Shown here: positions 3,536 through 6,841 of the stretch, in pieces
Position numbering within the stretch: the stretch's first letter is position 1
Layout: every line of letters begins with the position of its first letter
NCBI GenBank assembly: GCA_946887155.1
Contig: CAMPKM010000123.1
Location: 1 to 7,625 of the forward strand
From: an uncultured Gemmatimonadota bacterium
Lineage (GTDB): Bacteria > Gemmatimonadota > Gemmatimonadetes > Gemmatimonadales > Gemmatimonadaceae
DNA: 7,625 bases
Direction of reading: 5' to 3'
The notes under the pieces: generated by a model
The model's database searches: none
The model's input: only the letters and a program-made list of their open reading frames with translations
What the model was told of the DNA's origin: nothing
Translations under genes and position numbers: made by a program

Positions 3536-3632
3536 TGGCGGGAGTGTATGGGAATCGAACCCACCCGACCCGACGATGTCAGGTCACGATCGTTTTGAAG
3601 ACGACGAGAGCCACCAGGCCCCAGACACCCCC
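3536..3632 (-). tRNA. selC: tRNA-Sec (selenocysteine), anticodon TCA
   Basis: A 97-base sequence folds as a bacterial 8/5 tRNA-Sec. Acceptor GGGGGTGT (3632-3625) pairs with ACACTCCC over 8 bp (one G-T), followed by G discriminator and encoded CCA (3538-3536). The D arm has a 6-bp stem GGGGCC/GGCTCT with a 4-base loop TGGT. Anticodon arm GTCGT-CTTCAAA-ACGAT puts anticodon TCA at 3598-3596. The long variable arm is a 9-bp stem TGACCTGAC/GTCGGGTCG closed by ATC. The T arm is GTGGG-TTCGATT-CCCAT. The extended acceptor, short D loop and long extra arm are diagnostic and distinguish it from tRNA-Ser or an opal suppressor. It is serylated by SerRS and converted to Sec-tRNA by SelA. The 5' end is only 9 bases after the selD stop, so the two are probably co-transcribed. 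Confidence 0.96.
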
Positions 3633-3641
3633 GTGTCCGGC

Positions 3642-4679
3642 TCACGCGAGGTCTATCGCAAAATCGCCTCGTGGCAGGACCTCACCGATCACTACCGCCC
3701 GCGGAACGCGCGAAAGATAGTCTTCAACCACCGGAGCGGGCAGCGAGACCAGCAGGCCTCCCGATGTCTGCGGGTCTATCGTCAGGGCGACGAGGAACGG
3801 TTCGGTGTTCCCCCATGATGTCTGCTCGCGCACATGGGTTTCATTGCGTTCCGCACCTCCAGGCGTCGCGCCCGCTTGCCAGGCTTCGCGCGCGCCGGGC
3901 AGCACAGGAAGCTGGCCGGTGACCAATCGCAGTGAGACGTTGCTTCCGCGGGCGATGTTCAGCGCGTGTCCGAGCAACCCGAAACCCGTGATGTCCGTGG
4001 CGCACTTTGCACCGACGGCGACCGCGGCGCGCGCCGCATCACGGTTGAGCGTGCGCATCGAATCAACGGTCGCGGTGGCAATCGCCGGGTCGATCACGCC
4101 TCGCTTGAGTGCGGTGGTCACGAAGCCGGTACCGAGCGCCTTGGTGAGCACGAGCACGTCGCCCGGTATCGCGCCATTGTTGGCAAGGATGCGATCGGGG
4201 TGAACGCTGCCCGTGACGGAGAGGCCGTACTTCAGTTCGTCGTCAATGATCGAATGGCCACCGATAATCGTGGCGCCGGCTTCGTGTACCTTGTCCTGGC
4301 CACCGCGAAGGATTTCGGTGAGCACGCTCAGCGGCAACTTGCCGCTCGGGAATCCGACGATGCTGAGCGCGGTGAGCGGCTCGCCACCCATGGCGTAGAC
4401 GTCGGAGAGCGCGTTGGCTGCCGCGACCTGGCCGAACTCGTACGGATCGTCGACGATGGGGGCGAAGAAGTCGACCGTCTGAACGAGCGCGAGATCAGCA
4501 GACAACCTGAATACTCCCGCGTCATCGAAGGTCTCACGACCGACGAGGATTCGGGAATCGGGTCTCGCGTCCAGCGGCGCGAGGGCGCGGGACAGGTCAC
4601 CCGGACCCAGCTTGGCGGCTCAACCCGCGCAGCGCGCGAACTGGGTCAACCGGAACGTGTTTTCCCGGAGGTCGGTCAT
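3642..4679 (-). CDS. selD: selenide, water dikinase SelD, a selenocysteine-containing form (internal TGA = Sec20)
   Basis: The full frame is 345 residues, close to the 347 of E. coli SelD, if the in-frame TGA at 4622-4620 is read as selenocysteine. The N-terminus runs FRLTQFARCAG-U-AAKLGPGDL: Sec20 takes the catalytic Cys/Sec place and Lys23 the essential Lys. Beyond it GRETFDDAGVF, VDFFAPIVDD (Asp70), ANALSDVYAMGG (Asp93), GGHSI, DITGFGLLGH, PGGAERN and DPQTSGGLL match SelD throughout. SelD makes selenophosphate from selenide and ATP for Sec-tRNA synthesis. Start ATG 4679-4677 has GAGG 8 bases upstream. The final stop (3644-3642) is also TGA. Ignoring Sec decoding would give a truncated protein starting at TTG 4505, losing the glycine-rich active-site loop. 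A 95-base gap with inverted repeats separates it from ridA; selC follows directly. Confidence 0.95.
4583..4608 (-). promoter_or_regulatory. bacterial SECIS hairpin in selD mRNA
   Basis: Eleven bases after the Sec TGA, GGGTCCGGG and CCCGCGCCC (minus strand) pair as a nine-position stem with one C-C mismatch and one G-T pair, closing the 8-base loop TGACCTGT. The apical loop starts 21 bases after TGA and has G as its second base. This agrees with the described bacterial SECIS model (loop roughly 16-37 bases from UGA, a G among the first two loop bases). It would be bound by SelB. A weaker alternative stem GGGT/ACCT uses overlapping bases. Confidence 0.75.
4620..4622 (-). other. recoded TGA codon = selenocysteine in selD
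   Basis: The TGA is followed by GCC GCC AAG, giving G-U-A-A-K, the known Sec/Cys-A-A-K active-site pattern of SelD. The frame stays open and homologous on both sides. A SECIS-like hairpin follows and selC is in the same cluster, so read-through as Sec rather than a pseudogene stop is strongly supported. Confidence 0.93.
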
Positions 4680-4774: not shown

Positions 4775-5158
4775 TTATCCGAGATGCGCGACCAGCTCGA
4801 TCTCAACGCGCACGCCGCGAGGCAGGGCGGCGACTTGAACGGTCGACCGTGCCGGCCGTGCGTCACCCATGGCGGCGGCGTAGACCTCGTTCAGTCGCGG
4901 GAAATCGGCCATGTCCTGGAGAAACACCGTCGTCTTCACGACGTTTTTCCAGGAGGCGCCGGCGGCGGCGAGGACGGCCTCCAGGTTCTCGAGCACCCGC
5001 CTCGCCTGGGGCACGATGTCGCCTTCGACGACCTGACCCGTTGCCGGGTCGATCGGGATCTGGCCGGCGGTGTAGAGAAAGCCGCCGGCGATGATTGCCT
5101 GCGAATACGGGCCGATGGCTGCTGGGGCGGCCTCGCTGCTCACGATGCGCGTGCTCAC
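4775..5158 (-). CDS. ridA: RidA family enamine/imine deaminase
   Basis: A 127-residue YjgF/YER057c/UK114 protein of normal length. AAPAAIGPYSQAI (10-22), FLYTAGQIPIDPATG (27-41), QARRVLENLEAVLAAAG and the C-terminal ARSTVQVAALPRGVRVEIELVA (103-124) are the family signature. Arg104 is the substrate carboxylate-binding residue and Glu120 the conserved acid. RidA forms cytoplasmic trimers with active sites between subunits and hydrolyses reactive 2-aminoacrylate and related enamines released by PLP enzymes. Start GTG 5158-5156: the upstream fhs stop TAG is part of its ribosome site (TAGGAG, 5170-5165), six bases from the start, so translation should be coupled to fhs. Family members lacking the Arg do other things, but here it is present. 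Confidence 0.93.
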   Translation of the reverse strand: MSTRIVSSEAAPAAIGPYSQAIIAGGFLYTAGQIPIDPATGQVVEGDIVPQARRVLENLEAVLAAAGASWKNVVKTTVFLQDMADFPRLNEVYAAAMGDARPARSTVQVAALPRGVRVEIELVAHLG

Positions 5159-5164
5159 GTCTGG

Positions 5165-5169
5165 CTCCT
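5165..5169 (-). promoter_or_regulatory. ridA ribosome binding site overlapping the fhs stop
   Basis: AGGAG on the minus strand starts within the fhs TAG stop and lies six bases before the ridA GTG. It decides GTG 5158 as the start and implies that ribosomes ending fhs can reinitiate on ridA. Confidence 0.75.
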
Positions 5170-6841
5170 AGGAGAGTCCGATAATGCCGCCATCGGGCTT
5201 GATGGACATGCGTTCGGCGGCGGGCACCTTCGGCAACCCGGGCATGGTCATGATGTCGCCGCACTGTGCCACGACAAAGCCGGCGCCGGCCGCGGGGTAC
5301 ACTTCGTTTACCGTTATGCGGAATCCCGTGGGCCTTCCGAGGAGCGTTGGGTCGTCACTGAGCGAATATTGCGTCTTGGCCATGCAGATCGGGGTGTTCC
5401 CCAGGCCGATCGACTCCAGGTAGTCGATGTTGCGATCGGCTTTCGGCGCGTAGTCGACGCCGACTGCACCGTACACACGCGACGCGATCGTCGAGATCTT
5501 CTCGCGAATCGGAAGGTTGGTGTCGTACAACGGCGCAAACTGCGCGTTGCCCTGCTCCAGCATCGCCAGTACTTCGCGCGCGAGTTCCTCGCCGCCCTCG
5601 CCGCCACGGGCAAACACCTCGGTCATCGCCACACGGACACCGGCCCGCCTGGCGGCGTCCACGACCATCTTCAGCTCGGCGTCGGAGTCGGAACCGAAGC
5701 GGTTCACGGCTACCACGACCGGTAACCCGAACTGCTTCACGTTCATGATGTGATGTTCGAGGTTCGGCAGCCCGCGTTCGAGAGCGGCGAGATCTTCGGT
5801 GGCCAATTTCGTCTTGTGAGCGCCGCCGTTGAGCTTGAGTGCGCGGATGGTCGCCACGAGCACCGCTGCCTGTGGCTGCAAGCCGGCTGAACGGCACTTG
5901 ATGTCGAAGAACTTTTCCGCACCGAGATCGGAGCCGAAGCCGGCCTCGGTGACGACGATATCGGCCAGCGCGAGGGCGGATTTCGTTGCCATGACCGAAT
6001 TGCAGCCGTGGGCGATGTTGCCGAAGGGACCGGCGTGGACGAATGCGGGTCCCCCTTCGAGCGTCTGGACGAGGTTCGGCCGGATGGCATCCTTGAGCAG
6101 CATGCTCATGGCGCCGGCGGCCTTGAGTTCACCGGCGCGGACCGGCTTCCGCTCGGTGCCGTACGTCGAGCCGATGACGATGCGAGACAGCCGTTCCTCG
6201 AGATCCTTCACACTCGACGCGAGGGCCACGATCGCCATGATCTCGCTGGCCGGGATGATGACGAAGCGCTCCTCGCGGGGGACTCCTTCGGCTGGTCCAC
6301 CGAGCCCGATGATCACTTTGCGCAAGGCGCGGTCGTTCATGTCGATCGTGCGCGGCCACGTTATGCGGCGGGGATCGATGTTGAGTGCGTTGCCCTGCTG
6401 CAGGTGATTGTCGAGCAGCGCCGCCAAGAGTGCGTGGGTGGTCGAAATCGCGTGGAAGTCGCCAGTGAAGTGAAGGTTGATATCCTCCATTGGCAGGACC
6501 TGTGAGTAACCGCCACCGGCCGCACCGCCCTTCACGCCGAACACGGGCCCCAGCGACGGCTCGCGAATGCAGAGCGCCACGCGCTGGCCGATCCTGCGGA
6601 AGGCCTGCGCCAGGCCAACTGACATCGTGGTCTTTCCTTCTCCAGCCGCCGTCGGGTTGATGGCGGTCACGATCACGAGCTTGCCGCGCGGCGGCCGGCT
6701 TGCGATTTCGATCGGGATTTTTGCCTTGTACTTCCCGTACAGATCGAGGTCGTCCGGCGTGAGACCGAGTTCAGCAGCGACGTCGGCGATCGGGCGGAGT
6801 TTTGCTTTCTGGGCGATTTCGATGTCGGAAGGAACGGACAC
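5168..6841 (-). CDS. fhs: formate-tetrahydrofolate ligase (10-formyl-THF synthetase)
   Basis: A 557-residue complete monofunctional FTHFS, the usual bacterial length. The N-terminal DIEIAQKAKLRPIADVAAELG (6-26) is the family opening. A P-loop TAAGEGKTT lies at 64-72 (T-P-A-G-E-G-K-T-T in many homologues). The signature EPSLGPVFGVKGGAAGGG (94-111) runs on into YSQVLPMEDINLHFTGD. Later NGGAHKTKL, VVAVNRFGSDSDAE and the C-terminal MTMPGLPKVPAAE motif are all intact. It makes 10-formyl-THF from formate, ATP and THF in the cytoplasm, feeding purines, fMet or, in acetogens, the methyl branch. Start GTG 6841-6839 fits the homologous N-terminus, but no ribosome site is visible before it; a TATTTT element lies at 6877-6872 without a good -35. 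It heads the fhs-ridA-selD-selC run, 65 bases after tatD. Confidence 0.97.
   Translation of the reverse strand: MSVPSDIEIAQKAKLRPIADVAAELGLTPDDLDLYGKYKAKIPIEIASRPPRGKLVIVTAINPTAAGEGKTTMSVGLAQAFRRIGQRVALCIREPSLGPVFGVKGGAAGGGYSQVLPMEDINLHFTGDFHAISTTHALLAALLDNHLQQGNALNIDPRRITWPRTIDMNDRALRKVIIGLGGPAEGVPREERFVIIPASEIMAIVALASSVKDLEERLSRIVIGSTYGTERKPVRAGELKAAGAMSMLLKDAIRPNLVQTLEGGPAFVHAGPFGNIAHGCNSVMATKSALALADIVVTEAGFGSDLGAEKFFDIKCRSAGLQPQAAVLVATIRALKLNGGAHKTKLATEDLAALERGLPNLEHHIMNVKQFGLPVVVAVNRFGSDSDAELKMVVDAARRAGVRVAMTEVFARGGEGGEELAREVLAMLEQGNAQFAPLYDTNLPIREKISTIASRVYGAVGVDYAPKADRNIDYLESIGLGNTPICMAKTQYSLSDDPTLLGRPTGFRITVNEVYPAAGAGFVVAQCGDIMTMPGLPKVPAAERMSIKPDGGIIGLS

Follow-up and report, generated by a model that had tools for sequence, protein, structure and literature searches.

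In Eubacterium acidaminophilum, a selDABC cluster has reportedly been named, to judge by the title of a paper, and genes for selenocysteine (Sec) insertion are found together elsewhere as well. The genes selA, selB and selD are often close to the tRNA-Sec gene (selC) (PMC5330540), neighbouring selCD genes are described in Sinorhizobium meliloti, and selC overlaps selB in Alphaproteobacteria, Gammaproteobacteria and Nitrospirae (PMC8124441). The product of selD, selenophosphate synthetase, is in some organisms itself a selenoprotein: 38 Sec-containing SelD were counted in 2006 (PMC1794560), and in another study 19% of the reference SelD genes are of the Sec type (PMC4561486). The premise of an earlier note on the DNA described here, that some SelD proteins use Sec at the catalytic position, is thus borne out in the available portions of both papers, and the selD gene analysed below adds a member to this well-known family (PMC1794560, PMC4561486). 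Judged by title or abstract, the literature searches made for this analysis listed no report dedicated to SelD or the Sec trait of Gemmatimonadota.

The whole stretch of DNA that was analysed (the window) is 7,625 nt long and contains the following gene and codon:

3642..4679, minus strand: selD, selenophosphate synthetase, 345 aa with Sec at residue 20, ATG start, TGA stop
4620..4622, minus strand: in-frame UGA, predicted Sec codon, opposite a Cys in the SelD of E. coli and Aquifex

Translated with TGA as U, the gene reads MTDLRENTFRLTQFARCAGUAAKLGPGDL... for 345 residues up to the terminal TGA, and codon 20 (4620-4622) is its single internal TGA. The NCBIfam model TIGR00476 (SelD) matches residues 10-314 with 376.9 bits (cut-off 125), AIRS and AIRS_C domains are found, and the match runs straight through the TGA in a frame that is otherwise open, just as the earlier note had described the SelD homology as continuing through one TGA. 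Its placing of this TGA exactly at the catalytic Cys/Sec position (G-U-A-A-K) also holds: U20 is aligned with the Cys of GAGCGCK in E. coli SelD (3u0o) and of SSGCAAK in Aquifex SelD (2yye), and the Lys that follows is conserved (UAAK in the window, CGCK and CAAK in the two references). We take the aligned residues to be Cys17 of E. coli and Cys13 of Aquifex SelD, and the Cys at this site and the next Lys to be catalytic. By family match and by its Sec/Cys-Lys site the window protein is a SelD, with selenophosphate synthesis from selenide and ATP as its predicted activity. The motif GAGG, 8 nt upstream of the ATG, probably serves as its Shine-Dalgarno sequence. The closest relative, a Gemmatimonadaceae metagenome-assembled genome (MAG; locus L001, genome G001), has a SelD that is 78% identical and groups with that of the window on the tree (support 100/100), and the neighbouring genes match at 70-87% where found, so that the window looks to be part of a Gemmatimonadaceae genome. 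Between these two selD genes, raw counts of synonymous and non-synonymous differences are 5 and 2 for the 19 codons that precede the TGA, and 102 and 73 for the 325 that follow it.

The identity of the residue at this site was followed through relatives found by scanning genome contigs with peptides of the window SelD, of which the best 80 of 134 confirmed were kept. Alignment of the full translation, which had been proposed as a check, places U20 opposite TGA or a Cys codon in 80/80 of these best relatives: the codon is TGA in 66, TGC in 12 and TGT in 2, and nothing else was found. Among the 53 Gemmatimonadota the counts are 41 TGA, 10 TGC and 2 TGT, and among the 27 others 25 TGA and 2 Cys; these shares are no census, because the search peptides came from the window SelD and the best matches were kept. 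The surrounding motif A-G-[U/C]-A-[A/S]-K is present at 53/53 Gemmatimonadota loci. With Sec and Cys homologues aligned at the codon and coding sequence kept to either side of it, selD of the window has the marks of a bacterial selenoprotein gene. Sec and Cys changed places 6 times within Gemmatimonadota on the full tree (54 Gemmatimonadota rows) and 5 times on a tree of those rows alone, and the direction was likely from Sec to Cys because most rows have Sec. A Cys also stands three residues before the site, forming a C-x-x-U motif (CAGU; window 4620-4631) in 37/42 Sec genes (41 Gemmatimonadota relatives and the window) and occurring in 12/12 Cys genes; E. coli SelD has Gly where this motif has its first Cys.

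Directly after selD lies a second component of the Sec machinery:

3536..3632, minus strand: tRNA-Sec gene (selC), found by ARAGORN, with the Rfam match RF01852 at 3540-3632

The RF01852 match scores 70.4 bits (gathering threshold 47), and only 9 nt separate the selD stop from the tRNA-Sec gene. The same order is found at 49/53 Gemmatimonadota loci, and at the other four (L002, L021, L048 and L049) the contig ends in selD or less than 60 nt past it. Outside Gemmatimonadota a tRNA-Sec was found anywhere in the locus in 3/27 cases and just after selD in 0/27, two of these loci (L080 and L056) having only 11 and 133 nt, respectively, past selD. The two genes, selD and selC, are probably co-transcribed. 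In four relatives with a Cys-type SelD, which form one clade (support 100/99), the tRNA-Sec gene takes in the final 44 nt of selD:

L009, 11001-11044: overlap of selD and tRNA-Sec
L040, 4344-4387: overlap of selD and tRNA-Sec
L070, 11001-11044: overlap of selD and tRNA-Sec
L071, 10989-11032: overlap of selD and tRNA-Sec

The overlapping tRNA-Sec of this clade scores 77.4 bits in Rfam, and its anticodon arm (placed by eye) contains the selD stop UGA.

The wider neighbourhood is largely shared as well. Upstream of selD the window has two further genes:

4775..5158, minus strand: Rid-family gene, syntenic neighbour (TIGR00004)
5168..6841, minus strand: fhs, formate--tetrahydrofolate ligase (NF010030 / PF01268)

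A Rid gene lies less than 1.2 kb upstream of the site at 53/53 Gemmatimonadota loci, and among Gemmatimonadota loci with enough flank tatD is found upstream of selD in 39/39 and fhs beside selD in 17/43. Downstream, genes for an LpxH-like protein and YbgC are present at all but one (L016) of the 30 loci whose flank is long enough.

Absence of selA and selB from the genome had been named beforehand as refuting a Sec-containing SelD, and both were looked for in 50 relative genomes, corresponding to 50 of the 53 Gemmatimonadota loci (all except L031, L048 and L049). SelA exceeds its family cut-off in 44/50 of these genomes and in 1/14 control genomes (E. coli), and SelB in 43/50 and 2/14; SelB matches below the cut-off occur in 50/50 relatives and 14/14 controls, and therefore only the cut-off counts. 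Both proteins are over the cut-off in G001, the closest relative, and the window's own cell would be expected to have selA and selB. The genomes below the cut-off are six for selA and seven for selB, three of them (G006, G010 and G042) for both. In these three the missing genes are likely gaps in draft genomes, because each genome encodes a peroxiredoxin whose active-site codon is TGA, and we would read all other sub-cut-off cases among the 50 genomes in the same way. The genomes without a selA match include the draft G041 of Roseisolibacter sp. H3M3-2, presumably an isolate, whose selD (L042) has TGA. The selenouridine synthase mnmH/ybbB (TIGR03167) was found in 0/50 relative genomes at E <= 1e-15; among the controls the model is over its cut-off in 1/14, and E. 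coli and M. jannaschii give matches. The usual second use of selenophosphate therefore seems absent from these genomes.

The sequence after the UGA was compared among codon-aligned genes, namely the 42 Sec genes and the 12 Cys genes of Gemmatimonadota. Most Sec genes have in common, with few variations, the sequence GGGUCCGGGUGACCU, which can fold into a hairpin whose loop, usually CGGGU, starts 16 nt past the UGA. In the window this corresponds to:

4588..4613, minus strand: putative bacterial SECIS (bSECIS) region, stem nt 12-19 paired with 25-32 (U of UGA = 1), loop CGGGU

In the 42 Sec genes an average of 7.33 of the 8 pairs are formed, compared with 5.51 when synonymous codons are shuffled at each gene's own usage; for the 12 Cys genes the two averages are 5.25 and 5.08. 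Taken singly, 24/42 Sec genes reach p <= 0.05 in this synonymous test for pairs (18/42 miss it) and 20/42 for energy, compared with 0/12 Cys genes for either measure. Pairing cells amount to 90.4% in the 35 distinct Sec rows (29-50% when the partner is slid) and to 65.6% in the 12 Cys rows (33-48% when slid), the stem core lies within the local minimum-energy fold in 38/42 Sec genes versus 0/12 Cys genes, and the codon at +5 is GGT in 42/42 Sec genes, the window included, versus 2/12 Cys genes. Covariation in the stem is modest: of the eight pairs a single one varies at both of its positions, from A-U to C-G, in 6 cells, a count that 28 of 500 shuffles reach. In four genes, those of the window, L001, L046 and L047, another local fold is better than the conserved hairpin. 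In the window the conserved hairpin has -5.1 kcal/mol, compared with -8.4 for a shifted hairpin that uses the same bases and has a GUGA loop and an interrupted stem, and when the window sequence was folded by itself in four ways it was no more stable than its shuffles (z -0.27 to 0.82). The first candidate for the SECIS stem had been the window's minimum-energy fold; it was dropped, as it is not conserved, and the stem common to the relatives was taken instead. A published bSECIS model specifies a loop of 3-9 nt with G in its first two positions, a stem of 4-16 bp, a distance of 16-37 nt after the UGA and a minimum free energy of <= -7.5 kcal/mol (PMC13188914, as set out in the part of the paper available). 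Both window hairpins fit it in the size of the loop, the G and the spacing (16 nt for the conserved one), and only the shifted hairpin reaches its energy limit. SelB presumably binds one of these two hairpins, either the conserved or the shifted form.

Taken together, these observations make it close to certain, in our judgement, that the window gene encodes a SelD with selenocysteine as its catalytic residue, its UGA being read by means of SelB, a stem-loop and tRNA-Sec. The evidence consists of a TGA at the catalytic site, a codon that in relatives is either TGA or Cys, the adjacent tRNA-Sec gene, a hairpin that sets Sec genes apart from Cys genes among the relatives, and the presence of selA and selB in the closest relative's genome, and the same evidence upholds the central proposal of the earlier note that SelD is itself a selenoprotein. 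Mechanistically, the ribosome would read UGA codon 20 as Sec; this recoding would be served by SelB, by the stem-loop that closely follows the UGA in the mRNA, and by the tRNA-Sec whose gene comes directly after selD; and SelA would turn Ser-tRNA-Sec into Sec-tRNA-Sec with selenophosphate made by SelD. On the strength of the sequence comparisons, Sec is thus probably inserted at residue 20 in the window's cell. That SelD would then need its own product, which had been put forward as a feedback loop, is correct as a logical consequence of any Sec-containing SelD, and the idea is old: Guimaraes et al. are said, by the title of their 1996 paper, to have raised the self-dependence of SelD as a possible autoregulation. 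Such feedback is a necessary consequence of the Sec type, as distinct from a demonstrated control circuit.

Other accounts of the TGA fare much worse. If the TGA were a sequencing or assembly error for TGC or TGT, a single-base change would restore Cys, the residue found in 14 of the best 80 relatives; however, 66 of those 80 have TGA at the same codon, the selD frame is without another stop, an intact tRNA-Sec gene adjoins it, and the window shares GGT at +5 with all 42 Sec genes (itself among them) but with only 2/12 Cys genes, so that we give an error, or a selD pseudogene, very little credence. A general reassignment of UGA in the window's organism, for example to Trp or Gly, would account for a conserved gene with an in-frame UGA, but we consider its probability negligible. 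Against it, the frame at 152-502, the LpxH-like frame at 2086-2871 and selD all end in TGA, and relatives without TGA at the aligned codon have Cys there, never Trp or Gly. Moreover, fhs and Rid match their families near full length without TGA, although the lack of internal TGA in other window genes is no evidence by itself, table 11 having been used to call them.

A third account, on which translation begins at an internal start past the UGA and yields a shorter protein alone, such as the 287-residue frame, finds its support in the public protein sets. The best database match (P0002) covers 83% of the query at 99% identity, starts after the Sec site and has exactly the 287 residues that the earlier note had predicted for a truncated annotation. 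Among eight records examined, five are short forms of 280, 287, 290, 302 and 322 residues, all beginning past the site, and the three full-length ones (P0003, P0046 and P0054) have Cys there. Short records of this kind are, however, what a gene finder would be expected to yield on stopping at the TGA, and the shorter protein would be without the Sec/Cys and the following Lys in a motif kept at all 53 Gemmatimonadota loci. We give this account as little credence as a sequencing error. With the UGA read as Sec, the analysis corrects a gene that is truncated in databases.

The absence of mnmH from all 50 genomes, together with a Cys-type formate dehydrogenase (FdhA) in half of those read, had given rise to the idea that SelD might be the sole selenoprotein in a purely self-serving loop. 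FdhA is matched at E <= 1e-100 in 26/50 relative genomes, and its site (NRTUHAPS) was read in 22 of them (L087-L108; G019, G025, G040 and G043 left out), with TGA in 11 and Cys in 11. The FdhA TGA is followed by GUCGUC-GGUCU-GACGAC or close variants, which by eye form a SECIS-like hairpin. A scan for TGA-interrupted frames in the draft genome G008 (15 contigs, 2.33 Mb), which was incomplete in that its filters missed SelD, its only positive control, gave 22 candidates, one of which is a peroxiredoxin interrupted by TGA at the peroxidatic site:

L134, 16918-17514 (G008 C1:196918-197514): TGA peroxiredoxin

Such a TGA was then found at 47/50 peroxiredoxin loci read (L235-L284) and in 43/46 genomes read, in an uneven sample of 30 best matches and 20 loci picked from matches flagged with TGA. 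The TGA peroxiredoxins are widespread in Gemmatimonadota and some adjoin a Cys paralogue. G001 has two, which we take by motif to be one AhpC/TSA-like and one Bcp-like protein. The sole-selenoprotein idea is accordingly rejected: besides SelD, the relatives have further predicted selenoproteins, namely peroxiredoxins and some FdhA. Sec peroxiredoxins are a known family in the available part of PMC13188914. Raw counts that ignore kinship are suggestive of Cys-type SelD going with a predicted Sec-type FdhA, which is present in 6 of the 7 genomes with SelD-Cys (the other, G042, having FdhA-Cys) and in 5 of the 15 with SelD-Sec (FdhA-Cys in 10); the two TGA peroxiredoxin matches in G042 weaken the pattern. 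The presence of fhs beside selD also goes with the type of FdhA: among loci whose FdhA was read, those with fhs have Cys-FdhA in 11 cases and Sec-FdhA in 2, and those without it have Sec-FdhA in 8/8 (L036 not assignable), again in counts that ignore kinship.

A more speculative and, in our view, rather unlikely proposal is that the selD-selC unit of Gemmatimonadota might act as a valve for selenium status, in which Sec would tie the selenophosphate supply to SelD's own product and the adjoining or overlapping tRNA-Sec would tie its processing to SelD expression. If this were true, the Sec/Cys switches at one syntenic locus would provide natural relatives with and without the valve, in which the Sec machinery and other predicted selenoproteins are retained. 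Irrespective of the valve, the dense switching of SelD at one conserved locus makes Gemmatimonadota useful for testing what Sec in SelD does, and the analysis places a Sec trait in this phylum that comprises Sec-SelD, predicted Sec peroxiredoxins and, in part, predicted Sec formate dehydrogenases.

Compared with known systems, bacterial Sec-SelD and eukaryotic SPS2 (SEPHS2) belong to the same enzyme family and have Sec at the same position, and nothing essential is different in the window gene; what sets it apart is the lineage motif C-x-x-U (RCAGUAAK), present in 37 of the 42 Gemmatimonadota Sec genes. The Cys-type SelD of E. coli and Aquifex can be aligned over nearly the whole length and have Cys at the Sec site and no UGA, whereas within the Gemmatimonadota tree both types change places five or six times. 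The overlap of selC with selB (PMC8124441) likewise puts a tRNA-Sec in or across the 3' end of a gene for Sec machinery, but in Gemmatimonadota the partner is selD, with an overlap in four Cys-SelD relatives and a gap of 9 nt in the window; the available text of that paper reports no overlap of tRNA-Sec with selD. As the selCD genes of Sinorhizobium meliloti and the selDABC cluster of Eubacterium acidaminophilum indicate, a selC gene next to selD is not unheard of; less ordinary are the conserved selD-selC order, present at 49 of the 53 Gemmatimonadota loci, and the overlap of the two genes in one Cys-SelD clade.
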